From NCBI GenBank assembly GCA_033182465.1, contig CP137318.1, positions 3,224,001 through 3,288,000 on the forward strand: DNA of 64,000 bases. Direction: 5' to 3'. Below are positions 16,939-38,561 of this stretch, one piece after another; positions within the stretch are counted from its first letter, which is position 1; each line of letters opens with the position of its first letter. Under the pieces are notes generated by a model. The model was not told the origin of the DNA. It made no database searches and saw nothing but the letters and a program-made list of their open reading frames with translations. Origin of the DNA: Sanghuangporus weigelae. Its lineage: Eukaryota > Basidiomycota > Agaricomycetes > Hymenochaetales > Hymenochaetaceae. The position numbers and the translations under genes are program-made.

Positions 16939-18578
16939 TGTACAGCCCCAAGGACCAATATCAAGTGGACGGAGGGAACTGGGCGGACAGCGGGGACGAG
17001 GGAATGGATGGACAGCAAACAATCAGCTCAGACTGTTCTTTACATAGTGTGCGGAAGTCAGGTCCAGTTAAGTGCAGAGACAATACGCTGTATGGAATCA
17101 TAGGCCTTCGCTGGGCGATGGAATGGAGAGGCTTCGAACGAACTTCGCGAAACACGATAAGACAAAGAACAATAAGACACGAGATCACTCACACCAAATC
17201 CGATGATGGGACCGGATCAAGAGCCGGAAGAAATTCTCGACTCCATCAATCATCCATGGTGTCTCAGACACACAAACTTAGCATACAGATACTGTACAGA
17301 ACAGGAATTGTGTCGCATTTCAGCTGGCAGAAAGGTGGTGAATCGTTCCAGATTGAAGCATCCGGAAGGCAATGATTTAGAGACAAAAGCACGTCTATAC
17401 CAGAAGCAGAACCAATGGACATTCGTCGGCGAACGGAAATGAATTGTGTGCCTAATTCGTCAGTCCGTGTCGTCTTTATTGTCGTCGCTCAAAGTAGAAA
17501 GAAGGCAACTGCTGTGTTCTTCCGTGTGAACTGTGATCGACACTTCCTCTTTTGTCAATCTACCTTTTCACTATCTACTCACTATCAGTCATCCAACGCA
17601 TAGTATACCATGGTTTTTGTTTGCGTTTCTGAGTGTCCCCTTAGCAACGAATTACTGTTCTAAGCGCAATAACCATTCTTCAATATTGCGAGTTGGTTGA
17701 AGTCTCCGAACAATAGATGGCCGGTTTACCTTGTGCGTTGACATAAACTTCACTTGAGGACGAGCAAGTTATCGCTGCAAATTGTTTAGGATAGAACGAA
17801 CCATCCGCTCTACCCTTATTCATGGTAAACAAGGTTAGTATGCCAACTGAGAGATACTGGTAATCATTGTGCTGAGTTCTGATCAATAGGGTTCATCAGC
17901 TTGGCCGACGTCGTCCATTTAATAGAACTTCAATTGATCGAATCTATTTTGTTTTGACTTGAGCGCTTGCGTGCGATTAATGCCTCTATTGTCATGATCT
18001 TTGGCTATGGAAACAAAAGATTGATCGCGAGTTGGATGCGTGGCAAATAGTGCGGGTCCTCAGAACTATTCCAAAGTTTGCACGCATCGGGCCTTTCACG
18101 GGTGGATTTGATGCTTCTCGACTGGCATGAAGAGCGGGTTGAAGAGCCATTGTTCTCGAAGACATGTTTTCAGACACGATGTTTCCGATATCTCTACGAG
18201 GCGTGGTAAATGAAACGATTTATCTGTCACTATCTCTGGATTCGATTGCTCATCCTGTCGTGGACTGTCGTGGACTTTGGTTCCGCAACATGTATTGATT
18301 ATATCTGCAACAAAATCATACCTGTTAAGTCAAATATTACATAACGCGGACTTATGTATCTCTACATATTAGGACGTCTGTCTATTCGTGAGAACTTCCG
18401 AGCAAAACTGTGCAGTATATATCACATGACTCAATCTGTTCCTTACCTCGCACACTTGAACGACCTCAACCCTCGACTTTGACGCTGTTTGTCAATACAA
18501 TACTGGTAGGCGTCTTCCTAGTTGTTTAGAGGGATATTCTTTGACGCTGTCCTCTCATTGTTGAGCAGAAAATTAAAA
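16939..18578. other. Long intergenic region between OPT and RPS29
   Basis: About 1.6 kb between divergent genes, holding both promoters. Short open frames (for example 16938-17375 plus and 17680-17886 minus) overlap each other, lack conserved motifs and are not called. No RNA gene, transposon end or repeat was recognised. The stretch just before 18579 is pyrimidine-rich, as is usual for ribosomal protein genes. Confidence 0.5.
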
Positions 18579-18909
18579 ATGACGCACGACGCTGTATGGT
18601 TCTCTCGTCCTCGCAAATATGGTAAGGGTAGTCGCCAATGGTGAGTTTCTCGAATCAGTTATAAAGTTTCTGGGATTACTCTGGTGGCGACGCATCCTAT
18701 GAAACTAAAAGCTCTGACACCGTTTTGTTTCTTGTAGCCGTCTCTGCGCCCATCAGGCGGGTCTCATCCGCAAGTACGGCCTTGATCTGTGCCGTCAGTG
18801 CTTTCGCGAGAAGGCAAACGCCATTGGTTTCGTCAAGGCACGTTTATTATCCATCTGCCATTCATCGTCCAACTTGCCTAACCATCTTCTTCGTTGCCAG
18901 AACCGATGA
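18579..18909 (+). CDS. RPS29: 40S ribosomal protein S29 (uS14)
   Basis: A small zinc-binding protein of the 40S subunit. Three exons are inferred: 18579-18640, 18738-18837 and 18901-18909. They give exactly 56 residues, the standard length of S29. The start [14 protein letters not shown] and the zinc motif C-R-L-C...[10 protein letters not shown] are unmistakable. The first intron has a normal GTGAGT donor. The second would start with GCACGT and end CCAG. Only this splice gives the family end GFVKNR-stop; reading through, or using the GT four bases later, gives ends unlike any S29. The last coding exon is then only two codons plus the stop. Expected to be strongly expressed. Confidence 0.93.
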
Positions 18910-19304: not shown

Positions 19305-19400
19305 AGCCCACGGCGAGGGTCGAACTCGCAGCCTTCAGATTTTTGCGCACCGCACAAACTCATAAGAGTCTGACGCTCTATCCGATTGAGCTACGCGGGC
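19305..19400 (-). tRNA. tRNA-Lys(CTT) with a 22-base intron
   Basis: Read on the minus strand the sequence folds as a complete cloverleaf. The acceptor stem GCCCGCG pairs with CGTGGGC (one G-T pair). The D arm is GCTC/GAGC and the anticodon stem TCAGA/TCTGA has loop CTCTTA+A with anticodon CTT. The T arm is GCGAG-TTCGACC-CTCGC. The intron (19341-19362, 22 bases) sits one base after the anticodon, the canonical place for nuclear tRNA introns. The base in discriminator position reads T, which is unusual for a lysine tRNA, where A or G is expected. A degenerate copy with a similar intron lies at 37660-37760. Confidence 0.92.
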
Positions 19401-19440
19401 CGCGATTAATGACTATTACCACTTCTTCATACGTAAAATC

Positions 19441-19506
19441 CATCCTTGTTACGCGGGCTTTTTACATAAAACCCTTTCATCCTTGGGACGCGGGCTCGCT
19501 CAAAAC
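19441..19506 (-). repeat. Two tandem units carrying the tRNA 5' arm sequence
   Basis: Just upstream of the tRNA (minus strand) the heptamer GCCCGCG, identical to the tRNA acceptor 5' arm, occurs twice more, at 19452-19458 and 19489-19495. Each is embedded in a related unit of about 37 bases that includes AAGGATG. The units look like small tandem duplications next to the tRNA 5' end. Confidence 0.6.
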
Positions 19507-19714
19507 TTTCCCTCTGCAAGATAGAAAGGCAACGGGAGCTACATCATAGTCGACTATATATGCTGTATATTCATACGCATAGTTTTACTGGAAGACATGT
19601 GCATCAGCCACGATACACTTTGTGGGTAAAGATAAGTAAGATATGCCGGCAGCAAGTATCTCGAGTCCGGCTATAAGGCACGACATTGAGTATTCCACTA
19701 CTTACTATTCCTGA

Positions 19715-20215
19715 TGATAAAGAATAGCTCATGCCTTTGTGTAGAGGTGCAATCTACGAACTACAAATGCAACCAAAACCGGCTCAAGAAAATAGGATAG
19801 CACGGGACATAGCAGACAGACGTTTGCAGCACGACGAGATCAAGGAGTAGATATATGAGGGTCTGTGGCCAGTTCTCAATCACTAGCAAGACCAATGTAG
19901 GACATCTGCTTAGCCAGTGCGCGGACTTCATCATCGCCCTTGCTTGCATCAGGTTGAGGATTCTTGTGCTGGACAGTCACCAAAGTGCTGCTCTTCAACT
20001 TATGATGTTAGCAGGACTGCAGGAGTCCGTATCTGCACCAGAGAGCGATTCTCTATCCGAATTGGAGGACGGCATGATGAGGATAGCGCCATCGTCTATC
20101 TTGGGCATGATACGTGAAGGAAATAACAGCGATGTTCTGGCTAGCCGAGGAGATCCTGTAACAGGCGAATCCTAGGTCACAATAGCACCGAGGAAATCTA
20201 CCTATAGTACGTGCC
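19715..20215 (-). pseudogene. Broken copy of the SprT-like gene tail
   Basis: The minus strand here matches the last intron, last exon and 3' flank of the SprT-like gene at 34180-36440. The acceptor CCTGTTACAG, the segment encoding KIDDGAILI (KIDDGVILI in the intact gene) and SDRESLSGA, the end SYI-L-SD and the following 3' sequence (near CCCGTGCTATCC) are all recognisable, at roughly 75-80% identity by eye. The copy has no 5' part of the gene. A one-base loss brings a stop in frame near 19995-19997, so it cannot code. The homology begins near 20215, close to the 3' end of the potassium channel gene. It continues past 19715 in patches to about 19565 and then to the tRNA. It keeps the intron, so it arose by DNA duplication, not by retrocopying. 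Confidence 0.85.
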
Positions 20216-20263
20216 AAGAGCATTAATTAATTACGGGCACGGGAATAGATTACAATAAACGTA

Positions 20264-22562
20264 TTATTCTTTGCTGACTCTCCAGTAGCGCCTTTCAAAA
20301 AGAAATTTCTCCTCGTCCTTCAATCGTAAGAGCCTGCTCCCTGCTGCAAGTAGCCCAGCGAAAGCTTCTCTATAACGAGAAACTTCTTGCAGAGTCTCTT
20401 GTTCGTCCATATCTGCGGCAAAAGGAACGAGATCCGCCTCTTCCTCATAATACTTCTGCATCAGCGTGTTCATTTTGCTTCGTTTGTTCGCTTCTTGTGA
20501 TGAAGTGGACGAGGCTTGTACGCCAGAAGAATTACCCGCCTGCTGGGAATCGTCCTGATCCGATCGTTGCTGTGCTGCTAGTGCTTTGATGTTGCGGAGT
20601 TGAACGATACGGTCGGCTTTCAGCAGCATGCGCGCGTTAGTCCCTTCCTTCATGTGCCCCAAGAGCAATCTACGTGCATGCTTCTCCAGTTCAACTGCAA
20701 GTTCAAGGATGTACTCAGTCAGAATCCTATCTTCTTCCCGCTCTCTCTCCCTCTCACGTTCCGCAGCTCCTTCCTCGGCCTCTCTAACGCTATCCTCATT
20801 TTCTATGTCCTCCCTTGGGACGCCATTCAGCAGCTTTGTGTCGATCCACTTTTGTTTGGCCGTAACGAAATCTGTGTGGGTCTTTCCTATCCCTTTTCGG
20901 GTATCATTCTTAGAAAGTCGCTCCTGCACATCTCGAGGCAGGCTTTTTTCTTCGTCCGTATCGTCTAACCCTTTGGTAACTCCCTGGCCCTGCTCCTCGA
21001 AGTTTGCTTCTCCAATGCCTGCCTTTGCTTCGTGTCGAAGGAGCAGATTTGTCGAGAACTTTTGAAAAATACTCTGAATGGTCTGGATTGCGAAGGAGGC
21101 CATGATTGGTACGGCCATGATGGAGTACAAAATGAACACCACTAACCCCTTCGTTAGCATTTTCACGGAACACATTATATGAGATATACCTCGACCAGCA
21201 GGTGTTACGGGTACATAGTCCCCAAACCCGATTGTCAGAAAGAAGACGTAACAGAAGTACAATCCTTGACCATACGTCCAGCTCTACGGAATAGTCAGTA
21301 AGTCATATCGCCACAAACGAGATCTTTCAACACTCACCTCAATTTGAGAGAAGATCAAGGCACCTAGAACCCAGAAGAGTAGGAATCCAGTGCAGTTTGT
21401 CAATAAATCTTGTGCCATCCTCCCTCTGTCAGCTTCATTATAGAGCTTTCGTAAGAATTCTAGCTCTCTCTCCAGACTCGGCTCTTTTTCGAGTTCATCC
21501 TCCTTCTCCTGTCTTCGCCTTTCAAACTCCCTTCGCCTCTGAATGCGCCGTGAAGCGAGACGTCCACGTAGAAACCGAACGAGCAGCTCGATTATAGAAG
21601 CGAGCTGCACAATACCGACGAGGACGAATGGAAATAATACGATCTGCGAGACAGGTTTGGTAGGATAGAAATCTCCAAAACCGATTGTCAGGATTGATAC
21701 TATTGAGAAATAAATGGCCTGCAGGTAAGTCCAGTCTTCCTACAAGTAGTTGGTCAGTTTATTTTTCGCAAGACTATGATACTGACGATAAGGGAGTCTA
21801 TCTTACCACTTGAGACATAAATAGTGCCAGAAGCCCAATGGTCAAAACAAAAAGGGTGTTCTCCAGCATGAAATGTCTACCCGCTATACGGACCCTGACT
21901 TGATTCTCGGATGTTGACTGATGTGATTTGCCGCGTACATGGAGCAAATAGTGGGACAGGAGCAAGGCAAAGATAACAAGCGCAAGGACTAAAGAAAACA
22001 ACCTAGAATTAAGCAGAACTGAGCTGGAAAGCGGGGCTAGGAATGGAAATACACATACGCGCACCAAAAGCCTTCCCCGTAACTGATTCCGGGAATGTTC
22101 CGCGATAGTATACCGTAGCCGAGTACATTACCAAAAGCAATGCCAAGCTGAAGCTCGTCGGACGCGTCAGTCTTCCGCTTCGAGTTTCTCATAGAGACTT
22201 AAACTCGCCTTTACTACCCAGCATCCCAGACTCACACGAGTTGAATATCTCCACAGCCCGTCGCTTACAGAGAAACGGAGGAGGAGAAGCCAATTCGCAA
22301 GAACGTTGAATGCCAGACCAACGGTACTCAACACGATATTCGTGTGTGGATCCGGTAGTTTTATGAGACCGTTTCCGTCCGAATTGTGTTGGAAGAACCA
22401 TGGTTCACTAACGTCAGTCAGGTCAACGGAGGTAGCAAATTACGATGTTTCTGCTTACGTCAGCGCGGGAATATCCAATAATGTGCTTAACGGCGCGATC
22501 ACTGCTGCTATGAGAGGCGCAAAGGTGGGCAGTGACTTGAGATCATCTTTTGTGGGCAGCAT
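20264..22562 (-). CDS. TOK1: TOK-type outward-rectifier potassium channel
   Basis: A plasma membrane potassium channel with two pore loops in one chain and eight membrane segments, as in yeast Tok1. The N terminus at 22562 starts MLPTKDDLKSLPTF. Several hydrophobic segments follow, then pore 1 with the filter TIGFGDFYP (near 21680) and pore 2 with TIGFGDYVP (near 21215). After the second pore come a last membrane segment and a cytoplasmic tail of about 270 residues. The tail has a highly charged Glu/Arg run (EREREREREED) that is likely coiled coil. Introns are short, the first at about 22410-22460 (GTAAGC donor). TOK channels release potassium on depolarisation and help set the membrane potential. 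The stop at 20264 is only about 50 bases from the broken SprT copy. Confidence 0.92.
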
Positions 22563-23329
22563 CAAAGTGGCAAAAGACAAGTATAGTAGCGTATGCGGAG
22601 CTGGTGACGGAGAATGCTCCTATATATACTACACCACAAGATCCGTCAGCCTTGCCGCGTCATTAACATTCTATATAAGGCCTTGGATCCGTAAAAGAAA
22701 GGCAGACGACTAGATGTATATTTTGACCAATTTAGTTTCTTTCCACAACATGAGCTAATGAAAAAGTTACTGAAAGCAAGCCAAGTAAATAACAATGCGA
22801 AGAAAGAAAGGGGCAATAGTGGTAAATACAGACAGACGAGCGTGCGAGCTATGAGACAATGGGTGGACCGATGATGATGCAGAACCGAGCACTGTGCTAT
22901 ACACGCAACAATCAAGAACGGAGTCAGAATGGAAGAACAATCAAACAGTCCAACACTTGAAGGAAAGAGAACTTGAAGAGCAATGGGAGAAGCAAGGGTT
23001 AATGCGGAGAAATACAGTATGTGATGGCAGTTAGGTGTGCGGGTTTAAGTAGGTGCCGTGGCACGGGTGTATGATGACAGACTAGCGAAGCAATGAGACC
23101 GGAAGAAATGATCAACACAGTAAACAAACATTAAAGGACCAGACTCTGAGTGGTTACGATAGCAAGGTTAGATAGAATCTTGGTGAATAATTTTGATGGG
23201 GAATTGTATACTCAGAGCGAAGAACAGGAACGATGCGCGATTTCAGCTCCTCGAAGTGCTCACCATGCATGCGTTTTGAACCTATGCTCGAGATAATGTT
23301 ATACGTTCTTGAGTGGGCGTAGCAAAGAT
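22563..23329. other. Gap between TOK1 start and PUF gene end
   Basis: About 0.77 kb holding the TOK1 promoter and the 3' untranslated region of the PUF gene. No gene, RNA or repeat recognised; a weak open frame at 22646-22915 has no family features. Confidence 0.5.
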
Positions 23330-26300
23330 TTACATGCTGTAACCATATGTTGCGCGCTGGTAGGGGTCATTGATGCCGTTCGCGATTCCGACTGATCCAC
23401 CGTAAGACGCTACGCCAGGAAGTTGGATATTGCCATTGAAGTTGCCAACGCCAAACCCATTCGTGCCGGAACTGAGCGCATGAGTATGTCCAGATCCGCC
23501 TTGGAGAACATATCCATCAATCGCCTGTGGCTGAAGAGAATGAATTGGTTGTTGTAAATGCAAAGATGCCTGTTGACCATGCAGACCGGTGGCTGCAGCA
23601 TTGCTTTGACCGAGGCCGTACATAGGCGAACGAGCACCATACACATCCGCCAGCTGATTGGAAGGGTGAATGGACCCTGCAAGAGGTCCACGAGGTCCGA
23701 TACCAGGGTGTCCCACGACGCCTTGATTCGCAAGAGCAATACCCATTCCTTGTTGACCGTAAGGATCGCCGTAATGGGAGATTCCGTTCGTATTTGCCAG
23801 TTCCATCTGCTCACGCTGAAGCTTAGACTGAATACGCTTCCCATAGGGCGTGTTACGGATGAGTGGGAGTATAGGACGGATGCCCTCGACAAGCAGTACA
23901 CGTTGCCCGGGATCAGCATAATCGAGAGCAGTCTGAACGCAGTAGTTTCCGAAAGAGTCGCGAAGGAGCTTCTCAAGGCGCGTCCGGTTAAGGATCTCGT
24001 CAATAAGCATCTTGCGTGTGTTCGTCTCTGCCACGCGAATGCATTTCTCGATGACATTCGAACTGAACTTTTGCACTGAGAGAGCGCAAACGTTACCCGT
24101 AAACTGGCGTATGACAGCGTCACTGAAGCGACTATCGTTCAAATCCAGAATGTATTGCACAACCTAGAGGAATATAATTCAGATGGATGCCATCTTCAGC
24201 AAGTCACCGAGCTTACGTAGTTACCGTAAGGGTCTTGCACTAGCGTGAGGGCGTTATACGTGATCTCGTTGACGAGCTGCACCCTTTGGTGATCTGACGC
24301 ATGGTCAATGCACCGTTGAAGTACACAGCATCCGTGACGGTGAGTTGCAACTTCGACACAGTTCGCGGCGACCGCATTGTAGATGAACTAGACATATAAC
24401 GTAAAAATCATACAAAAACAATGCTTCTCATACAAAGTACATACCTGATTGTCTTCAGGTGACAACTTGTTGAGGCACTTCTGAATAACGTGGTTGCCGT
24501 TCAAGTCCTTGATGAGGACCACTACGTGCAGACTCAATGCGACGATGATAGAATGAATCTGAGCATTGTATCTAAGATCAGTCTGCTTCCGCCTACGCGT
24601 AAGCATATAAAGAAAGAGGCAGCACAATAGATACTTGCCTGTCGCTGTGTCGACAGAAAGTCGATCATCTTCTGCACCGCACGCGTACCATGCATATTCA
24701 GCGAAATGTTTACCAGATCTTGTGCAACAGATTCGCAAATCAGGTTACGCTGTTCGTCCGTCGAGTACTCGAGAAGCTTTTGGCAAAGATAATTTCCGAA
24801 GGGATCTACATTATTCAGTCAGTCGAAACTTCTGATAGAAAACTAGACGTAAAAATCCTCACCCGTCATCAATTCTGCAAAGTGCCCAAACGTTTCACGG
24901 AAAATTAGATCCCGGTACTCCGGATTACCCTCCTCGAGCTTCTTCTGGAGAAAACGGCAGCCGTGTTGATCCTTGCACAAAGCAGCAATCTCGCCTTGAA
25001 GATCTTCCAGACGGGTACCAGTGAAACGATTGACTGTGAGTGAGAAAACAGTGAACCGTTGCTCGTTACCATAGATAATATGCCACTTACGATCAATGTC
25101 ACCACGTTTATGTTTAGGGCCATGGAGACCATTCATCTTATTATCAGACCCAATACGTGCTCCCATAGACAGACCGTAACGAGAACCATGGTGGTGGTAA
25201 AGGGCGGTCGAACCACCAGTAGTACCAGATCCATTAAGCCGTGCATTCGACTCTAAGCCGTATCCATTAAAGCGATTGTCTTGGTCCAAATAGATTGAAT
25301 CAACATCATAGCGATTCTGAGCTGAATCATTTGAACTGAAAGTCAAAGGACTTTCATATTGAGACGGAGAAATCCTGCTGAGTGATGCGGTAGATGCCAG
25401 TTCACCAGCGCTTGCAGGAGCATCGAGCGCACTTGCTGAAAGGCGAGAGCCAAGCATGTGAGCCTCTGAGCTCGACTGAGGAGTGCCAGGTCCCCCAGGT
25501 GCCCTTCCAAACTGTCCAACGTCTGTACGCAATGAAAGCGGACCTGGACTGACGTTCAAAGGCGATGTACGACGTGATATACCAGACGTATTTTGAAGCA
25601 GTGGAGTGCCACTCGCAGATACGGTTGCACCAAGCTTGGATTGTAAGTCGTTCAGGCTGGAATTCAGCGCTCCCGCTCCAAGTTGCGGTGTACCCGTGTG
25701 CCGATCACTACGTACCGTAGCGCCTTCTTGGCTCCGCGCGAACTGCGGCCATTCCGAAGACTTCTGCGACAGCGGGGCAAGATCTAAAGCGGCCGATGAC
25801 GAAGACAACTGATAGGAAAGTTTTAGGTAACATCACAAACTTGAGTGAGCAAATTCATTGTACCTTATTGCCGAACTCTCCTTTTGAGGCGACATGCTTA
25901 TCATCGTCGGGAAGAGGCAAGTGCCTCATGGCATCTAAGAAGAGACAAGGATGAGCCCTTTTCGACGCATACAGACAGTAAGGACAGAGGAAAGGACGTC
26001 TGATACATACTCTGCACTTCCTTATCGAGCTGCTCATCCAAGAGTATTCCGGCATTGTAGCCATTTCCAGGACCGCTGAATTGAGCACCTTCATGACCTA
26101 CTGCATATCCTGCCCCGTTGACGCCGATCCTATTCATCGACTGGGAGCCTGTCCGACTTAATGGCGACGTATTACCATTGGAAATGGGATCTTGAACTGA
26201 CAAGCCCTGCAGTTGGTTTGCGAGATCGTCGTCGTGCTCGCTCGCAGAGGTCCGACGGCTCGCCGGCATTGATTTTGCACCTGCGCGAGCAAAGGCTGAG

Positions 26301-26924
26301 CCATTCGATTCCACACCGAGCCCATAGCCGATCTGCGGGGTATCCGCATACGCAACAGACTTCCTTTTGTCAACATTGACTCCCGCGCCAACCGTGTTCG
26401 ACAGTGCCGCAGGGTCCATCAAACGACCATGCATAACGGGAATCGGCGAGTGCTCGCCGCCGACAAGGGTCGAGTTGACACGCGGCGGTGTGGTGGGTGC
26501 TGAGGCAGCGAGATGCTGAAGGTTCTGCGAGCCGTCTATGGGCAGACTGAGAAGCTCCTGTTGCTGTTGGTGTTCTAAAGCGCGCATTTGCTCTTCAAAA
26601 ATTTTCCGCTGTATGGCACGCTGGCGCTCGTGTTCCATGCGTTTCAGCTCGACACGCTTTAGTTTTACGAATGTCATTTCTCAGGTACTATTACAGCGGT
26701 CAAGATGACTGGGGACTCACTGCTGAAATGTCTGGCATATTAGTACCCAGTCTGGCCGCCTGGACAAGAGAGAAAACGGGAGACGTGTCAGATGGGTAGT
26801 GCACTTTAAGGCCGACGCGACCCACCGAGTCTGCGAGGTCGAGAAAAGCAGGTGGGCTCTGCTTGCGCTCCTCGCTCGTGCGAGAGTCGATCGGAGATGC
26901 TGAGTGGTCGGTAGGGGCGTTCAT
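23330..26924 (-). CDS. Pumilio-family (PUF) RNA-binding protein, Puf4/Mpt5-like
   Basis: A cytoplasmic post-transcriptional regulator that binds UGUA-type elements in mRNA 3' ends. The start at 26924 leads a long disordered N-terminal part (Ser/Gly/Gln-rich, with EQMRALEHQQQQ near 26580). The PUF domain follows with eight repeats whose RNA-contact helices can be read in order: HGCRFLQ, GNYLCQ, GTRAVQ, GNHVIQ, GCCVLQ, GNYVVQ, SSNVIE and GNYCVQ. This series is that of classic PUF proteins with full base-recognition triplets. The domain ends in YGKRIQSKL, and a Gly/Gln/Ser-rich tail of about 150 residues follows. About six short introns cut the gene. The GCCVLQ repeat fits Puf4 and Mpt5 rather than Puf3, but the exact orthologue is not settled. 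Confidence 0.92.
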
Positions 26925-27978
26925 AATGGATAAATTTGAGGTATATGAATCAATGAAAAAAGTCTTTTTCCGGGTGAACGACAGAAGGGCAAAAAAGGGC
27001 GGTAAAAGAGAAAACTAGCGAATATAGAGAGATAACCTAGTCGCACAAGCGTTATCCTAGGCTTGCATGTGAGCTGAGCGAGCCCGGGGTGGAGGTGGAT
27101 GTCGTAACGAGGGGGCGCTCACCAGAAAACGGGAAACTTTTTCAGCCAGTCTAATAAGAATTGGTGATACAACGGCGTTCTCTACGTGTAAGACGAGAGT
27201 TTTAGAGGAGATACGAGGGATTAAGGGAAGACGACGAGGAGCAGAACGCACCGAGCAATATGAGATTGAGAGGAAGGTAAGTAGAGGAGCTAAAGATGCG
27301 TCCGGTGTAGCGGTCGGGTTATAAGGGACCACCAGTCGTCGGCTAGCGCGGCAGGCAAATCAAGCGGGCTTTCTTTTCACATTTATTTCCATTTTACTCT
27401 TCCTTTTTTTTTTATTCCCTCTTTTCCTCGTCTCACTTCGCCGTCCGTTCGCGGTTAGACAGCTCAGCACGTACCACAACCATCAGAAGCAAGGTGTCTA
27501 TACCCAATCTCTCGACCGAATATTAGTTTCTAGTCCTTGCACTCAAAATCTTATTTTTCTCTCTCTTCTCATCATATTCCTGGCCCCTTTTACACATGCG
27601 GATATATTCCATAAGCATCATCAGTAGATTAGTAATTCCTTGCAAAATTGCATCGTGTGTGGCCATCAGAGAAATCAGAAAGGTACTGTTGCAACGCGAC
27701 ACCCGAGCCGCACGCGTGAAGTTTCTCAGCGTACGAGTGTGGTTCAATTGTGCAGATCATTTATTCCCCAACCAAATAATCATATTCTTCCGTTTCTTCC
27801 AGATAGGAAGCAGTAATTCGGCCAGGGCCACTCATGGGGAAATATTTACTGCCATGCGCTGCGATCTCGTTCCTAAACTTTAGGTCACCGATGAATACCT
27901 CACCAGGTTCAAGAATTTGACTGCGCTCCTTTCGACTCCATATCCATATAGTTCTATTCCACTCCTCAGTGCATTAAC
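26925..27978. other. Long upstream region of the PUF gene
   Basis: About 1.05 kb between the PUF start codon and the stop of the Vps38-like gene, both on the minus strand. It must hold the PUF promoter and leader. It includes a T-rich tract at about 27390-27420. Short open frames such as 27057-27332 (minus) are probably leader frames or chance. No other gene seen. Confidence 0.5.
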
Positions 27979-30900
27979 TCAACGTGTTGGATCGACTACT
28001 GAGTCCGAATCTTCAGCTGAATCTAGACACTTCTCTATCTCGGAGCTCATAGCGCTCGGAATCGCGCCTCGTAAATGCACACGCGCTTTCAGATTGTCCA
28101 ACAAGCTTTCTGGCGCAATACTCCCGCGTCTTGAACGAGTTTCTGGCACAGGCGTTGTCGGTACAGATGGTCCACGGACGGTGCATCGGTCATCATCTTC
28201 ATACTCGTCACTGCTCTCCGAGGTTTCTTCAGTGCCGTCCTCAGGATCCTCTTTAGGAGCAGGAGGAGACACAGCCGGTTCTGACGTTTGCTCTCGAAGG
28301 CTGGCGTCTTCTGTCTCTACGTCTTTGCTTGACGAAGCGACAGAAGATGAAGACGCACCCCGTCCTCTCCACATCGAAGAGAGAGGTAAACCCAAGTATG
28401 ACTGGATCTGGATTCGTGGTAGGCGAGGACGTAACGCGTTGGTGCCGATCGTGGTGCCCGATCTATCTTCGTTCCCAGAAGACAGAGACATGTCGCTGGC
28501 ACCCTGCGCTGCATTAGAGCTTGTGACCAAACTGCCGTTCGGATCACTCTCGGCTAGATTAACAGCGTCTGCGCTTTCATCGACAGTAGGTAGAACAACG
28601 ACTCTCCCCTTTGGCGTCGTGCCAGAATTAACCTCGTCATCCTTCAGACTCAAAGGCGGAGGCTCAGAGTTTCCAGACTCCGCCGCTTCTGCCACATAGG
28701 GACTCGGAGACTGCAAACCAGGCGTGATAGATACGACCGAGGGCGAAGGCCTTCACGCGATGTTCCGACATTTTTTTCGAGGATTTTTTCGGGCCGTCCA
28801 GGCGAAAGCGTCAGGGCACATCGGCATAAGCGAGACGCGGGAGTAATTTCAGAAAATCGCATGTACGTAATCGAATAAATGAGAGAACCGGCGCATAGGT
28901 ATATGTCAGCATAATGCAAGTAGAAAACCAATTTAAAAAACAGGCATATAGGAAAGAAGAAATTGATAGAAGAACAGTCGTCAACAAAGCGAGTTCAAGT
29001 GTTTGAACCCAGAAGAACAACGGATACGTACGCCAGGGACGGCAAATATGGAGTAAAGATGACGCGGACATGGGACTCACCTTGGTAATGCTCCCTCTCC
29101 GCTAGTAAGCGTTAAGAGGAGATTCTTAAGGTTCGGCAACGTGTGGCGAAGATCTAGTGCGCGGAGATTACGCTCTGCCATAAGCTATCAAGGTTGAAAA
29201 GTCAGAGGGCAAGGATACTCTTCAGGAACATTCGGAATTATATTGTATACTCGAGAGTGTGTGCAAAAATGGCCAAACCACCGAAATGAGACTCACCATC
29301 TCAATATCTTTGTTGAGAAGGAATACAGCGTACTCAAATCGATACGTATCGACGCCCTTCGAATACAACGGGAACCTGGTAGAGGGTAAATACACTCTAA
29401 CACGTATCCGTAAAGACGGAGGAAAGCAGATATAACTCACATCCGCGGCCCCATCATTGCGGAAATAGGGTCCTTCACAAGACTACGGCTTCCCACGTAC
29501 GTGATTGGGTATACGAGTCGTTGACATAGATAGGCTGCCATTAGATGCACGAGGAGAGCTGCATACCCTAACGAAGTGGCAACGTTGTCTTCGGTTACTG
29601 CAGGCTCATGAGGGAGCGATAGTGGAGGTGCGGGATCGTTCCCTTGCAGTGGAATCGGTAAAGGAACGCCAAGGATAGTGTATAGCAGGTCAGGAGGAGA
29701 AAGAAGCTCTATAGGGAAGATGAATGCGAGTGTGGAAAGGAGTGATGTCTGGACAGGTTTGATACGATTTCGGAGGCCCTGCACTCGTTTTCTTGAGAGT
29801 TACCGAGACAAGGAAAATCAGAAATCACTTAGCGGAAATCAAGTATAAGGCCCACCTTTCGTCTGCTAAGCGGACGCCGGCATCGAATTCAGTAAGTAGA
29901 TCATCCTCATGCAGAGCGCGAGCCTCAGCCAGTCGCATTCGCCTTTGGCTGAGTTGCTGCCTGTGCGATGAAATGCTGTCACGGGCTTCATGACAACTCA
30001 CGCGTCAGAACGTTGTTAGTCAAGGCTGAGAGGTGCTTCTTACCCGATCTTATATGATCATCAAGCAAATCCCGCTGCTCTTGTAAACAACGAAGCCGGT
30101 ACTCGCGCTCTGATGATTCTCGGCGCTAAAGCACGTTTGGCCTCAGTGAAGAGTATTACAAACTGAGAAACTTACAAGCACAGTTCCAGGATCACTTTCC
30201 ATGAGACGGTTGCAATTTTCCAAAACATCTTGCAATAGATTCCGTGCATCCAACAAGGATGCTTGTAGAGAAGCGAGCCTATGAGAATTCCTTAGGATTA
30301 AAGGGGAAAAGGTCAGGAAAACTTGAATACACACTTTACTAGCTCATTGAGGTTCGCACTTTTTAGCTGTCGCCGTGGTTTGCGTTGACGACCACGATCA
30401 AGGGAGAAAATCGTTTTAGAAGGCGGGCGTCTACGCGAGATTTCAGTATCTGAGTTATAGTTCGGTGATTCTGGGCGACTAGGCAGAGGTGTGACTCCGA
30501 GCAATGAGGAAGGAATATAATGTGGCTTATTTGACGTGGAAAGAGTAACGACAAGCGTATTCGAAGGGAGCTTCCAAGGATGTTCGACAAGCTGCAGCAG
30601 TTGACTGTTAGCAAAGGCATACCATACAGCTGCTTCAAGTACTCACATCATCTGGCAGAGGAACCAGGCCAGACAAAGAAATGTCCCATTCGCAGAGAAT
30701 CTTCCAGTCGTTTCCGAACAGGTCGGTATATTTCTTCTCATCTAGTGATTCTACTTTCTCTTTCCCTTTGCTTCCTGCACAGATATCCGATTCTGCGCCA
30801 ATTCTTGCCCACAAGCGAATGATAACTTTGTCCGCAGACAGGTCCGTCCATCGCGCGAAGGCCGGATCCTGAGAATCTAGCATAAACTTCGGATTCGTCG

Positions 30901-31908
30901 ACGGCCTGTGGAATGGAGACATAAAAATAGGTACAAGAATCGGTGTCGGCGTAGCAGGAGGTGGAGGCGTAAGCGGAGGGGACTGTGGAAACGTCCCCAT
31001 CAGCGGAGAGTCGGATGTTTTGGAAGTTGTGTCAGTATTGATAGAACTAAAAGATGAGACGGAAGGAGATAAAGTACTGTGGCACGACCTGTTGGCGGAG
31101 GTGGTCGAAATGGATGCAGTTCGCCGAGAACGTTGAGTAGGAGAAGACGAAGGGAGAAGGTGCTTGAAATCGACCGAGCCACTGAGGCGTTTTAGCGGTG
31201 TACTCTTCGTGCCTCGACTCTTTCCTGGTATAGGCGAAACGGGTGAATTCGTATTATCAGGTGGAGGATGAATTGTCAGAAAAGTATCCACAAGTCGACT
31301 CCATATCACATCTTCGAGCTGCTTCTGAGAGTTCAATGTATCGGATGTCCACGACGAAGAAGATTGTGAAGGCATCTGCCACGATGGTACTGAATCTTCC
31401 GGAAGGGACGCCCCAGTTCCAATTTGTCGAATCTCCACTGAGCTCGTGTGTATCTGTCTTATCGTTGACGGACTCAAGGACTGCTTACTACTCGCATGTA
31501 AACTGGCTCTTGAGCTCGTACGCTTTCGCGTGTGCTTGTCAGGCTCATACGATGCAACACCGTCATAATCGTGTTCAGAATGGACACTCCTAAAAGTGTG
31601 TGTTGACGCAGAGGAAATCCGTCTCTTCCTTCTTTGTCCCAGAAGTACGTCTGCATCATCTGACGCTGATACGGACCCGTTTCCTGGGCCACTAGGCAAA
31701 ATAGACGATCTCTGCGTTAATGCTGAAGCAAGAGAATCACGCGCGGGGAAGGGCGAAAGGTTACGTATTTGAATGGATGTGATATGTCGAAGACAGGGCT
31801 ATCGGCGCATTGATGAGACACGGTCATAATAAGAAGCTCGTTACAGCATACCTGAGGCAATGACAAGTCAAATGCATCTTTGTCTCTAGGTGAGCCGTCT
31901 GCATCCAT
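27979..31908 (-). CDS. UVRAG/Vps38/Atg14-like subunit of PI3-kinase complex
   Basis: Subunit of the class III phosphatidylinositol 3-kinase (Vps34) complex acting in endosome sorting or autophagy. The start at 31908 encodes a short exon MDADGSPRDKDAFDLSLPQ. After an intron, CLRHITSIQIRNLSPFPARD follows, a family-type start. Then come a long Ser-rich insert, a C2-like stretch (KILCEWDISLSGLVPLP), a coiled coil region (30000-30300, with LREEQRDLL-like heptads) and the C-terminal domain. The C-terminal domain has YPITYVGSRSLVKDPIS, FPLYSKGVDTYRFEYAVFLL and LRHTLPNLKNLL, the hallmark motifs of the UVRAG/Vps38/Atg14 family. A disordered acidic tail of about 240 residues ends at 27979. Vps38/UVRAG is favoured over Atg14 because no N-terminal Cys repeats are seen. 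Confidence 0.85.
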
Positions 31909-32238
31909 GGTCGTTCCCTCCCTATCGCTAACGTTTTTACGACACTTTCAGCAATTTCAGAAGGAGGGCGAGGTAGACGCAAACGGATAGATCCAGCTTC
32001 GAGCCAGAATGCGCACACAGGTGCAGTCAGGTTCAGAAAGTGCGAAGATAAGAGGCCATACATATGCTGTACGTTTGTCGCTGAGAATTCCCGTTGTTCG
32101 TTCCAAATGAGTGCGATTTCCAAATGAGGTAAATAGCTTCGATCACCGTCACGGTTGGCTCACCGTCAGACATCAATTGCCTCATATCACTCGCTTGCTT
32201 ACAATTTGTAACCGAGTCTCGCGATAACTTCTCGCTCA
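31909..32238. promoter_or_regulatory. Divergent promoter, Vps38-like and acidic protein genes
   Basis: The 330 bases between two start codons on opposite strands must hold both promoters. No specific site was recognised. An open frame on the minus strand (31824-32123) runs through part of it but lacks family features and is likely chance. Confidence 0.45.
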
Positions 32239-33930
32239 ATGCCACCGAAAGGCGCGTCAACCACGGCGAGATCCCAGCACGTTCGTAAGCCGTCTGCGGT
32301 AGCCAAACCGTCCACGAAAGAGAAGGGTAAGGGCAAGGAGAAAGAGATGGACACGGAGAAGGGCAAGAAAGACGACAGTGCTATTATGCCTCCACCTCCA
32401 CCACCTTGTAAACCACCTGCAGTCCTTGAACCGGAGATAAATGCTTTGGAAGATAGTCTAAAGGTTCAGTGCACCAGTTTTCTGGCTCGAATCGTCAATC
32501 TAACAAATACAACGTCCAGAATGTAACCGTCACTGCAGCTCAGATATTCAGGTTCTATGCAGACACCAAGAAACTGTGTGTGAAAACTTATCGTGGTCGG
32601 CCCCATTTTCTGACAATACACTATAGTGGCGTACAGAATCGGGCCCCTCGCCCCCCACGGTCCATGACCTCCGACCTTGAGCACGAGCTTGGGCGATACG
32701 ACCAGATTTGCGATGCCATTGAGATTCATTTGGCAAGTCAGACCTTCTGGGTTCTTACGCGTCACTAATCGATGCCGTAGGCTCGCTCTATCGCTATTCT
32801 TCAACGAGACCTGGCGAGAGAAGAAAACCGAATTCGTGAAGAAGAAGCCGAGAAAGCACGGGAGAAGGCAGCGGAAGCCTCAGCCAGGGACGGAGACATA
32901 GAAATGGACACTGGAACAGAGAGCTCTAATGAAGTTGCAGGGAAACAGCAGCAGGTTCAGCCATCCGGTGCGCTGGTAGGAACAGGAAAGATTCCGCTGC
33001 GCCGACCGTCGAAGATCTCACTCTCTACATTACATCGAAGTCCCTTCCCTTTGAAACTGGACCTATCGTCCACTTCTTTGCGTCTTGGCTCTGAAGAGGG
33101 AGGTTTGAACATGTCAGCCTTGGATAACCTGGATGCCTTAACCACATTGGGCTCAATGGGTGTGGATGGTATCTCTGGACTCGCCTCGCCAGGTGATTAC
33201 GCACATATTGTTCTGTTTGTGTTTAAGCTCATTGAATTCCAAAGTCACACTCGCTCCAAAATCCGCGCGTCCTATGGGTCCTGGAGAGCTGCCGCCTGAA
33301 GTCCTCGCTGCTCTTGCGTCCGCTTCGGGGGTTGGCAATCAGAATATGCAATTGCCAGACCCGAGCCATCATGTCGACATTGATTTAACCTTAGATGACG
33401 TATCTGTGGACTTGCTAAACTCTGGTGACTCTGCGGACAAGCCCATAGAGCTTGATATTGAATCGGACGTGATGATGTCCGACCTTCATGTTTCTTCTGA
33501 CATTTTCGGTGAGCAGGGGGCAAACGGAGAACATTCATCCGGATCACCTGTGGACTCCGAAATTGAGAAACTCTTTGGCCCGGAAACTGCCGCTATGGCG
33601 ACTACAAGCAATGCTGATGATGGGAACGGAGTGGACATGAGCATGTTACTCTCAGAGAATCACGGAGACGAATTCTTCGCGTCACTTGATCCCAAGAACA
33701 ACGGTTCTCACGATGACTCAATAGAGAGACGGACCGAGACGGGTGCTGGACAAGGCGATGGAAGTGGAGATAATGCAGGATTTGATTACTCATTGTTCTT
33801 TAATGAGTCCACGAACCAAGAACAGATTGACATGATGGCGCATTTCCTAAAGATGGAGAACACGGTAACCGATGCTGGGGCTTCAGAGTCCGAAAAAAAC
33901 TCAGCCCTCGGTCCTTCAGTAGCTACATGA
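32239..33930 (+). CDS. Acidic uncharacterised protein with a GC-AG intron
   Basis: I do not recognise the family. The ATG at 32239 starts a Lys-rich, Pro-rich leader (KEKGKGKEKE, then PPPPPP). A helical stretch follows (VLEPEINALEDSLK, then DLEHELGRYDQICDAIEIHL, ARSIAILQRDLAREENR), and then a long acidic Ser/Asp-rich part (DIDLTLDDVSVDLL, KPIELDIESDVMMSDL) ends at 33930. The acidic part could be an activation-type region; the leading helices recall Mediator-type subunits, but this is speculation. One intron lies somewhere between 32465 and about 32650 (borders unsure). The next, 32733-32780, starts GCAAGT and ends GTAG; only this GC donor keeps the frame. A third lies near 33192-33247. The gene is tandem with the SprT-like gene. 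Confidence 0.6.
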
Positions 33931-34179
33931 TGATCTTTTTGGCATGTATTATTTGGCATAGCTCCTTTCAGTCGAATACCTACTACACGTAGTCACCGAA
34001 TAGACGTGACAAGCATCACGAGACGCGTGACACACGCGTTAAAGGAATCTCAAATAAGGTTCATCAGAGCATCTAGCCCTGTGCGAAACGAAACAATATT
34101 ACTGTAACGCCTTCTGTGAATAAAGCGTCACGTACTTCTTTGCTTCCTACCACTTCTGGATTGTTCTGTAGGGTCCACC

Positions 34180-36440
34180 ATGACTCTCAGTGGCTCTAGT
34201 GGTCTCCGAAAGACATCGTCGCTCGTTATTAGTTCCCCGACTAAGAGTAGCGTACCGGATAAGAAGCCTAACAAAGTCGCTGTTGGCCGTGATACAGTGC
34301 CGGATGGCGAAGAGGAAAGTGGAGGGAAAATCACGTACGCCCAGACGCTCGCCTTTGCCCGTTTTCACTAATTTATGCAGTAGTGCGTACAAAGGAGATA
34401 TTGTTGAATTATCTTCGGAATCAGATGATGACAAGTTTAAAGAAACGTGCGTCCGGGCTTGCCGAGTTGAACTTACGACCATCACTGAGTTCTACTCTTG
34501 CTTATACTCAACCTATTAGCTCAACTAGGAAGAAGATATCGCTCGTCGGCTCTGATCCGTTCTTGAGTTCTTCAGGAAGGCCTGCGGGCTCGTCAAGCAA
34601 ACGAACTACGGCAGTTGTCGAAGAGAGCGAGACTGAGGATGATTTTGAAGAACAGCCACACTAGTAAGGCGCCGTAGGGAATGCGAAGTTCAATACGAAC
34701 TTATATCTCGAATGTAGCTTTCCGAAAGCCAGTAAGATGTGGCGCACGGTCGTTTCAGACTCTGAAGACGAACTAGAAGAGAACGAAGAGTGTGATGACA
34801 TACATCGAGGACTTGCCGCGGATGTCGATGGAGCAGTACTCATCTTGAGCGATCCCACATCTTCTCGCAGACCTGTAGCTCGTAATTCTGATTCTCAAGC
34901 CAAACAGAAACAAAAGAATCCAGTGCTTGCCTCCTGCGCTGATGGTATTCCGAGTATTCCGGGCGCAGAGCACGTTGAAGTGGAAGATCCCTCCCTAGCT
35001 CGAACTCCTATCTCTCCTCGACCCCGTGCTACACCGGGAACGCAAACCGAATTACCGAGCTTTTTTCTAAGCGAAGATCAGCCGAAGAAAGCTTCAGGAC
35101 GCGCGACAGAGACAAACCCAACCAAGGAATCATCTTCCGCAACCGCACCTACATCACCCACAACGACGAAGTCAAAGACTAAGCGCAAGACTAAGAAGGT
35201 TCTGCAGCAGGAGAAGCAGGCGCAATTGGCCGCGTATGCGCAAGCTTTGTTTGACGAGTTGAACACATCCGTGTTTATGAACCGACTTCCGAAAGACACA
35301 CCACTGATATGGAACAATAGGCTTTTGGCCACTGCAGGGCGGGCGAAATGGCACAGGTAGGTTTGTTTGTTTTTCCATAAGTTTTGATAGGTGGATTATG
35401 GTGTCGCACGCCCATAGAGATAGCAGAGGAGTTGTGACAACATACATTGAGCTTGCTACGAAGGTTCTTGACTGCGAAGGTGCTTTGATTTTTCTTTGCT
35501 ATCTCGTCATATACCGATCTTTATCTGCTTTTAGAACGCATCCGGAATACGCTCTCGCACGAAATGTGTCATCTCGCATGCTGGGTCATCAATTGCAATC
35601 CAAAGGAAAACCATGGCGGAGTTTGGAGAGGCTGGTGCGTATAGAAACTTCTTGTCGCATATTAAACTTAGTTATAAATACAGGGTAGAGGAAGTCATGC
35701 TGAAGAGACCCGACATCTTTATAACGGTGAGTAATGACTATTTGCTCTCAATCCCTTGCTCTTATACAGCTCGAAATACTTGTAGACGAAGCATTCCTAT
35801 GATATCTCATACAAGTACGAATGGCAATGCCAAACTCCCACTTGCAAGAAGATGTAAGCAAAGCTTAGCAGGCCCAGGAATAGACGCTTAAATCTGTTTC
35901 CATAGATATGGTCGTTTCAGCAAGTCCATTAATCCGGCCGAGAGTAGTATGTTGAATATTAATCACTTATGAACCAACTTGATGAAATCATGATTTAGTC
36001 TGTGGCGCGTGTAAAGTGGGAGAGCTTATCCCGCTCTTCCAAGTTAGGACGAGGAAAACAAACGTTGTCAGCAAATTGGCTGCAAGTAAATCACGGGGTA
36101 CGTGTCGTTTAGTGTGCAAGTCTCCGCGATACTCATGTAATCTGCAAATTCCCCTGTTACAGAATCTCCTCGGCCGGCCAGTAAATTGCGATTCACTCCT
36201 TCACGCGTCAAGAACAAGATAGACGATGGCGTTATCCTCATTACGTCGTCCTCCGACTCGGATAGAGAATCGCTCTCCGGTGCAGAGATCGACATCGGTT
36301 GTCCTGCTGACGTCTCTGAGCCGAAGAGCACGTTGCTGACTATTCAACCTGAGAATCCTCAACTTGACGCAGGTAAGGGCAAAGATGAACTCCGCACGCT
36401 GATCACGCATATGTCCTACATTGATCTCACGAGTGATTGA
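34180..36440 (+). CDS. SprT-like metalloprotease, GCNA family
   Basis: A nuclear zinc protease of the SprT/Spartan type that digests proteins crosslinked to DNA. The acidic, disordered N-terminal third (34180 to about 35170) is followed by the SprT domain. Across introns the domain reads LFDELNTSVFMNRLP, LIWNNRLLATAGRAKWHR, TTYIELATKVLDCEERIRNT and LSHEMCHLACWVINCNP, with the active-site HEMCH and then NHGGVWRGW. A zinc ribbon follows (WQCQTPTC, then CGACKVGELIPL). The C-terminal 85 residues are acidic again. Four hydrophobic-acidic motifs look like SUMO-interaction motifs: DIVELSSESDDD and VLILSD before the protease, VILITSSSDSD and YIDLTSD after it. This layout fits GCNA more than Spartan. 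About nine short introns. A dead copy of its tail lies at 19715-20215. Confidence 0.88.
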
Positions 36441-37043
36441 GAGTCGGTCATAAACACTCACATTGATGTGATGCTCCGCAATTAATCGTATCTCTAGTTC
36501 TTGATCATGTCATGTCACTAATGCCTGCTATGTCCTGTGCTATCATGTTTTCTCGAGCTGATTTTGGTTGCGCTTATTGTTCCTAGATATAACTATATAT
36601 ATAGGCACGAGTTATGCTTTCTTCCAATGTATCATCATCGCAAGAATACACCGCGGTAATCGAATGCTTAATGCAGCGTCTTTTATTCGTAACGACGCAT
36701 TAATATTGCTGTTTAACACGAGATGCATGCTGACGGAGTATCTTAATTAGATATAAGTGAATCCTGATTCTGACAATGATGCTAATTTATAACGATGTTT
36801 CCAGTAAAACTATGCATACACACATAGTCCAGAGCGCATTCTCCATTTTGCATAGAATGTATAGGAGTGATTGTACAAATAGCAGTATACGACCGTTATT
36901 ATCAAAGAAACCATCTTCCATGATCCAATGAGCTAAAGATTTGGCTGAAAACAAGACAAAATATAGCCTTTGTATCCATTATAGTATGTAAAGAAGAAAC
37001 TCAAAATGTTCAGGGTGTCCGCCTAACAACAATACTATTGTCT

Positions 37044-37086
37044 GCCTGTAACAATGTGTATTAGAGGATATGTATGATGCTTTGCT
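37044..37086 (+). repeat. Direct repeat, first copy
   Basis: About 43 bases starting GCCTGTAACAATGTGTATTA and ending GCTTTGCT, repeated with small differences at 37307-37358, 263 bases further on. It may mark the ends of a small inserted element. Confidence 0.7.
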
Positions 37087-37306
37087 GTCGCGTATCCGGT
37101 ACCCGGTATGTAGATTGGCGTGTAGGTGAGTTCTGCCGCTGTCCTTGCCTCAGCGACGACCCGAAGGATGGCCTCGCGTATCGCGGGGTCATCTTTGTCT
37201 AACTAAGGACACGACCCCCTTCGCTCTCGCTGCTTTGCTGAGACCTGCCGTGTTAAGTAAAAATTTCACACAAATGTGGCGGTGATTTAAAGCTCAGAGT
37301 CGGCCC

Positions 37307-37358
37307 GCCTGTAACAATGTATATTAGAGGATATGGATGAAATAGTACATGCTTTGCT
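37307..37358 (+). repeat. Direct repeat, second copy
   Basis: Second copy of the repeat at 37044-37086. It shares GCCTGTAACAATGT-TATTAG and AGGATATG and ends GCTTTGCT, with about nine extra bases (AAATAGTAC) inside. Confidence 0.7.
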
Positions 37359-37659
37359 ATATAGCTAAAGTGACGGCGTAAGAGGGGCATCAAGCAAACC
37401 CTAAGGTGGTCTATACAAATCAAAAAAGAATTGAGCATTATTAACCGCGTGATCAAAAGACAAGGAACAGTCCGGAGCCGGAGATTCCAAATTTCGACGG
37501 TAGAAATACTGATAGCGTAGCGCCGCATAGCGCACGCACGTCCACGTCGAGAGGCGGTGGTCTACGGTATCCCGTTGACGGTCCGCCGGGCAGAGAGGTG
37601 AGTGGTTACGTATAAATCGGGAGAGGGTTGTGTCCGTGTTGGACACATTCGCGACGGTC

Positions 37660-37760
37660 TTGAGGTATAGCTCAATCGCATAGAGAGCGTCAGACTCTTA
37701 TGAGCACATGCGGTGTGAAAACAAATTTGAAGGCTGCGAGTTTCGACCTTCGCGGTGGGC
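37660..37760 (+). pseudogene. Degenerate tRNA-Lys copy
   Basis: Clearly related to the tRNA-Lys(CTT) at 19305-19400. TAGCTCAATCG-ATAGAG, GCGTCAGACTCTTATGAG and GAAGGCTGCGAGTT-CGACC are shared, including the start of the intron (TGAG...GCGGTG). The 5' acceptor arm no longer matches the 3' arm, and there are extra bases in the D arm and T loop, so it should not fold into a working tRNA. It lies downstream of the SprT-like gene in the same order and relative orientation as the working tRNA lies downstream of the dead SprT tail. Confidence 0.85.
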
Positions 37761-38561
37761 CATCGGAAAATTTTATACTTTGCAGCCAGCTCAAAGCAAG
37801 GCTTTTTTTTCAAAAAAATACATGTAGTACTGTACACGAGTAACGACGATGACCTGATCAATCGCGAGGTCGCCAATGCCCAACTGCTCTGCGTGCAACC
37901 GGTAAGATTTGCCGTCGTTGGAATTGCAAATACAATAGAATTACAATGAGATGCACGCCTACTTCGACTATGAGTTCCTGCCTCCACATTTCGTGTATTA
38001 CTCTGAAACTTTGTAGGACATATGTTATGATATACAAAAACAATATGGGCTCAAATTTTTGAGAATTGCAAAATTATGGAAAACAAAAGAAAGACCTTGC
38101 CTTGGGAGATAGTGAACAAAACATCTAGCTCCATAGACCTATTACTAGTACTTACATCGAAAGATCCATAAAACGAAAAAAAACGACGGTCTTTGGTTGT
38201 ATGAGTTGCAATTTACTAATTTGATGACTGAGAGAAGCGGCAGAGATTCTTACTCAGGTATTCGGATGGGTGTGTAGAACGGACTTCGAAGCCCGAGTCG
38301 GAGGCAACGAGCAGCACTGGACTGGAAGCCAGTGAAGAAATTCTTTGAAATCATCCAACCACACTAGCATACAGTAGATAGGACAATATTTACGCAAGTC
38401 TGACAAAACAAATAAAGAGCGAAGACGAAGTCAGCACATTCCACGATAGATAGCGAGAATACACGAATTAGTTTACTAAATGATAGATTAGCCAATAAGT
38501 TATATGCCGCAAATGCCAAGACAGCATGGCAAACGCATACAAAGGCTACGGCACATGTATG

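Follow-up and report, generated by a model that had tools for sequence, protein, structure and literature searches.

Diverged inverted copies of a SprT-like exon and a tRNA-Lys at the two ends of a 16-kb segment in Sanghuangporus weigelae, a possible footprint of an old inversion

A 64,000-nucleotide stretch of contig CP137318.1 of the basidiomycete Sanghuangporus weigelae (assembly GCA_033182465.1, forward-strand positions 3,224,001 to 3,288,000; hereafter the window) carries two blocks in opposite orientation about 16 kb apart, each of which joins the last exon of a gene for a SprT-like metalloprotease to a tRNA-Lys sequence. A first-pass annotation of the window had proposed that these blocks are an inverted segmental duplication with one surviving gene in each copy. 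Our self-comparison of the window bears out the pair: the blocks at 19305–20215 and about 36100–37760, numbered from the first base of the window, are diverged inverted copies of a unit made up of the SprT last exon, the end of the preceding intron, 3′ noncoding DNA and the tRNA-Lys. The features of the two copies are listed here.

19305 to 20215, minus strand: left block, composed of the SprT last exon as a relic, a spacer and the intact tRNA-Lys, from the alignment.
19305 to 19400, minus strand: intact tRNA gene, interrupted by an intron of some 22–24 nt (Rfam RF00005, 56.5 bits, E = 7.1e-10).
19876 to 20155, minus strand: relic SprT last exon, with an in-frame stop at 19997–19995 and a net +2 frameshift.
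36100 to 37760, plus strand: right block, composed of the SprT last exon as part of an open gene, a longer spacer and the tRNA-Lys in its decayed form, from the alignment; the start is approximate.
34180 to 36440, plus strand: SprT-like metalloprotease gene, 11 exons, 559 amino acids, from an open spliced model (Pfam SprT-like, E = 1.4e-21).
36163 to 36440, plus strand: last exon of the SprT-like gene, from the alignment and the spliced model.
37661 to 37761, plus strand: decayed tRNA-Lys that has lost its acceptor stem, with a D loop longer by 2 and a T loop longer by 1.

When the window was compared with itself (E ≤ 0.01), three pairs were returned in all, two of them strong and inverted. 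On the SprT side, 19719–20170 matches 36148–36620 (70.9% identity over 481 columns, E = 7e-66), and on the tRNA side, 19306–19393 matches 37668–37760 (83.9% over 93 columns, E = 1e-18); the third pair is a 34-bp direct repeat within the right block. A weaker match in the middle keeps the same order (19574–19666 versus 36716–36818; 66%, E = 2e-5, shuffle p = 0.0005). The local alignment of block against block scored 215, compared with a maximum of 24 among 200 random window pairs of equal size. The block coordinates given in the first-pass annotation agree with these matches. Similarity outside the tRNA, by which the first-pass annotation had proposed that the duplication be judged, is therefore present, in the exon and in the 3′ noncoding flank. 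Because this flank and the intron end are common to both copies and the similarity ends at both sides, a duplication at the level of DNA is supported, as the annotation had held. Overall, the alignments support an old, inverted, DNA-level duplication with opposite gene fates in the two copies. An mRNA retrocopy is ruled out by the 3′ noncoding DNA, intron end and tRNA that the copies have in common, and an assembly artefact by the differences of 16% and 29% in the two strong matches. The three short tandem repeats found in 18000–39000 lie outside both blocks.

The limits of the duplication can be read approximately from the points at which the similarity ceases. On the SprT side, the match runs into the last intron of the right-hand SprT gene, intron 10 (36098–36162), of which the final 10 bp are identical between the copies, and the exon preceding this intron has no match in the other copy (p = 0.24 and 0.90). 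Intron and flanking sequence had both been described as shared, and the intron end and the 3′ flank are; however, the intron match becomes marginal once the final 12 bp are set aside (shuffle p = 0.03), and nothing in the right spacer significantly matches the part of the left spacer at 19402–19573 (p = 0.19). On the tRNA side, the match stops at the 3′ end of the tRNA, beyond which the adjoining sequences (55 bp, left; 89 bp, right) show no significant likeness (p = 0.10). The wider outer flanks gave no match to each other at E ≤ 1, and the inner flanks gave one weak match (E = 0.008).

By coordinates, the spacer between the SprT stop codon and the tRNA is 1224 bases in the right copy (36441–37664) and 474 in the left, the right being longer by about 750 bp. 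The right spacer contains two 34-bp direct repeats (37044–37077 and 37307–37340; 94% identical, 263 bp apart), which a segment of the left spacer at about 19459–19417 resembles, but this match is not significant (p = 0.19). Words of the form GCCCGCGT are repeated just upstream of the left tRNA, and the left tRNA itself starts with GCCCGCGT. The additional repeat DNA of the right spacer, together with the general fact that tRNA genes are usually multicopy, would suit an origin of the block in a larger or multi-copy set, consisting of tRNA-linked duplications elsewhere or of a larger SprT duplicate that was later trimmed, in which case the two copies would not be each other's closest relatives. 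The unit, however, contains an exon and an intron end of a protein gene, and only two copies of it were seen in the 64-kb window; we consider an origin of this kind improbable.

The left tRNA is intact, in line with the first-pass annotation. Its 56.5 bits against the tRNA model exceed the gathering score of 29, and all four stems, as we placed them, are complete (7/7, 4/4, 5/5 and 5/5 pairs). From the anticodon loop it is read as a putative tRNA-Lys(CTT) with an intron. ARAGORN detects the gene and gives no isotype name, and the minimum-energy fold of the sequence with its intron is not a cloverleaf. The SprT piece beside it consists of the last exon alone, and the stop codon and frameshift listed above break it as had been claimed. 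Unless it is what remains of a larger copy since trimmed or deleted, it could never have worked as a gene. The ratio of observed to expected CpG is 0.69 in this relic exon, 1.28 in its intact counterpart and 1.04 in the window. The relic starts about 50 bp past the stop codon of the adjoining TOK1-type channel gene (20215–20264) and may now form the 3′ untranslated region of that gene.

In the right copy, the SprT-like gene can be spliced into an open frame over all 11 exons, in agreement with the first-pass annotation; the start of exon 5 is uncertain, as three acceptor sites keep the frame and the first was taken. The product matches the Pfam family PF10263 over profile positions 1–108 of 108 (E = 1.4e-21), and its HExxH motif reads HEMCH. 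The last exon carries motifs that we take to be SUMO-interaction motifs. A sequence search against solved structures gave no match at E ≤ 1. The arrangement resembles that of GCNA in its SprT-like protease domain, in two cysteine pairs that follow the domain and, by eye, in acidic stretches ahead of it, as far as the available text of the GCNA report describes that protein (PMC5098910). Unlike GCNA, the product has no Pfam match to the two-helix HMG box at E ≤ 1. As to the C2C2 zinc finger that follows the protease domain in GCNA, the Zn_ribbon_SprT score of 16 bits lies below the curated cut-off of 28.1, and the two Cys pairs are visible in the sequence. According to the same partial text, primate GCNAs are also without the HMG box, through a stop codon (PMC5098910).

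The right tRNA, which had been called broken, has no Rfam match at E ≤ 10 in 37600–37850 and keeps 2 of the 7 acceptor pairs. Pairing is still possible in the D, anticodon and T stems when these are placed by hand, and the sequence as a whole folds no better than shuffled sequence (z = 0.27). The fates of the two genes are thus opposite in the two copies, and to this extent the "reciprocal gene survival" of the first-pass annotation is accurate. The survival is lopsided, however: the right tRNA is a real loss, and because the left SprT piece is a one-exon fragment, the two sides are not symmetric.

Intron-rich genes give the window a eukaryotic look, and the TOK1-type gene suits a fungal origin. 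The neighbouring genes used in what follows are these.

20264 to 22440, minus strand: TOK1-type potassium channel gene (Pfam Ion_trans_2 on two exons, two TIGFGD motifs); limits rough, from open frames.
18580 to 18840, plus strand: ribosomal protein S29 gene (RPS29), lying outward of the left block; limits approximate.
38565 to 39275, minus strand: partial cytochrome P450 gene, lying outward of the right block (Pfam p450, E = 1.8e-32).

Between the copies lie TOK1, a PUF gene supported by Pfam, a Vps38/ATG14-like gene (PF10186, E = 2.9e-7, below its curated cut-off) and an acidic gene at about 32212–33927. Two pieces of the acidic gene, 33142–33927 and 32212–32523, gave no Pfam match. This gene, which lies upstream of the SprT-like gene, contains a DIDLTLDD stretch that resembles the YIDLTSD end of the SprT-like protein. 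For RPS29, Ribosomal_S14 is matched by 18718–18906, the second exon (E = 1.5e-9), and the first-exon piece at 18522–18641 has no Pfam match. Among viral contigs, an 18-base tRNA pattern had no exact match, and 4 pattern matches for SprT and 5 for TOK1 were obtained, none of them confirmed.

The first-pass annotation had further suggested that the two arms could promote inversion of the segment between them. Long, nearly identical arms are not present (identities 70.9%, 66% and 83.9%), and the longest exact runs common to both arms are 21, 20, 17 and 17 bp, which would be expected to be too short. Arms so diverged (66–84% identical, with at most 21 bp shared exactly) are expected to recombine poorly today, and the suggestion is not supported for the present sequence. 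A hotspot still active, at which the 16-kb block would invert within the population, would draw on the inverted orientation of the arms around a 16-kb spacer, and on an inversion in the basidiomycete Cryptococcus that an inverted gene pair at its breakpoints possibly facilitated, according to the part of that report available (PMC6561019). That pair is 98% identical, and on arm identity and exact-run length we reject a present-day hotspot here as very improbable. The inverted placement could instead result from an inversion already past.

What we infer from the two blocks is such an inversion, with the ancestral gene order and the mechanism of breakage that it entails: tentatively, we prefer to read them as an inverted duplication left behind by an old inversion of the ~16-kb segment holding TOK1, PUF, Vps38 and SprT. 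The ancestor would have had a complete SprT-like gene on the minus strand, followed directly by the tRNA-Lys and then by RPS29, with TOK1 facing the P450 side; flipped back, the block would read RPS29, tRNA-Lys and complete SprT gene at one end, and TOK1 and P450 at the other. The breaks would have been staggered, one in SprT intron 10 and the other immediately beyond the tRNA, and the strip between them would have been copied into both new junctions; alternatively, a replication fork could have stalled at the tRNA gene and switched template, copying the strip. The SprT body would have moved to the right end with one copy of its tail and stayed intact, and the tRNA would have remained, also intact, beside RPS29 at the left end. 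The redundant left tail and the redundant right tRNA would then have decayed. The presence of duplicated DNA in inverted orientation at both segment ends, a feature of staggered-break inversions, and the ceasing of similarity beyond the copies speak for the inversion. Each surviving gene would, moreover, sit on the copy where the inversion keeps its ancestral flank or neighbour. A duplication that is the result of the inversion and not its cause fits at least as well as the causal order of the first-pass annotation.

The same alignments and limits can be obtained from a single local event that leaves the 16-kb block in place, and we regard this as a real possibility, close behind the inversion. 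Here, break repair or template switching would have copied a strip from the SprT and tRNA-Lys locus, and the copy would have entered between RPS29 and TOK1 in inverted orientation, with no inversion at all. The SprT piece would have been dead on arrival, and the new tRNA would have been kept while the old one was lost by chance. Such an insertion requires the surviving tRNA to be the inserted copy, an outcome that it allows but does not predict.

We also count the divergence between the copies in favour of the inversion reading and of the decay that it places after the duplication. The copies differ at 63 of 277 sites in the last exon, 39 of 152 in the 3′ flank, 23 of 59 at the intron end and 13 of 92 in the tRNA including its intron, where 11 gap columns, including those of the first four acceptor bases, are left out of the count and the apparent divergence is thereby lowered. 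The tRNA pair has diverged about half as much as the 3′ flank. The counts speak against both tRNAs having decayed as fast as the flank (p = 0.005) or as fast as the exon (p = 0.028), and the tRNA divergence fits about half the flank rate, although the assumed value (0.137) sits close to the observed one (0.141). Exon differences are spread evenly over codon positions (21/91, 19/93 and 23/93; p = 0.78), and no constraint on the protein is apparent from the comparison of the exon copies. Selection on the left exon is ruled out by its stop codon, its frameshift and this even spread.

Several of these results weigh against the inversion and the decay that would have followed it, beginning with the omitted gap columns and the closeness of the assumed half rate to its target. 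The evenness over codon positions implies no constraint on the tail of the intact copy either, so that the left copy is not singled out. Divergence is lower in the exon than at the intron end (p = 0.013), but between exon and flank there is no such difference (p = 0.55). CpG changes do not tell which copy changed (exon 7 versus 3, p = 0.34; flank 4 versus 4; tRNA 0 versus 1). The same anatomy, finally, would follow if a copy of the block had simply been inserted, inverted, between RPS29 and TOK1.

Gene copies are reportedly born and lost at both inversion ends in the inversion-associated duplication of Helicobacter pylori, a bacterial case. Yeast inversions are said to have oppositely oriented tRNA genes at their ends, from which recombination between existing tRNA genes was inferred; in the present case the tRNA lies within a longer strip together with an exon. 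Closer parallels come from Drosophila. In the available part of the published account, staggered breaks left inverted duplicates at both ends of inversions 2h and 2q of D. mojavensis (PMC3355041), and for inversion O7 of D. subobscura, staggered breaks are discussed with template switching as the alternative (PMC7584159). As in 2h, 2q and O7, non-repetitive DNA is here inverted at both segment ends, and we count the size of the Drosophila strips, about 1 to 7 kb, as a further likeness, again from partial texts (PMC3355041, PMC7584159). As far as the same account goes, one arm was shortened by deletions in 2h and a gene was copied without its first exon in 2q, both of which resemble what we find (PMC3355041). 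Unlike our segment, those in Drosophila were identified as inverted against a relative; ours is also distinguished by its size of ~16 kb and by one strip end at a tRNA gene, as far as the excerpts of those reports allow comparison. The Cryptococcus inversion, as partially available, is likewise fungal and has two related sequences in opposite orientation at its ends; its genes, however, are a nearly identical proposed cause, whereas the copies here are old and may be a product (PMC6561019). In the open-licence literature searched on inversions and duplications, we found no fungal inversion with staggered-break duplications. In its most specific form, in which an ancient fungal inversion began at the tRNA-Lys gene by fork stalling, copied a 1–1.7 kb strip at both ends and divided two genes, each surviving by its ancestral neighbour, we consider the proposal rather unlikely.

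If the insertion is true, the locus is a small duplication of an ordinary sort, each copy of which contains one dead gene piece. If the inversion is true, it would provide a fungal case of inversion-coupled duplication in which both copies are still readable. It would illustrate the way in which two linked genes are first duplicated and later parted by an inversion, with a tRNA gene implicated as one of the break sites. The inversion reading also makes a simple, sharp prediction on the order of these genes in relatives of the fungus.

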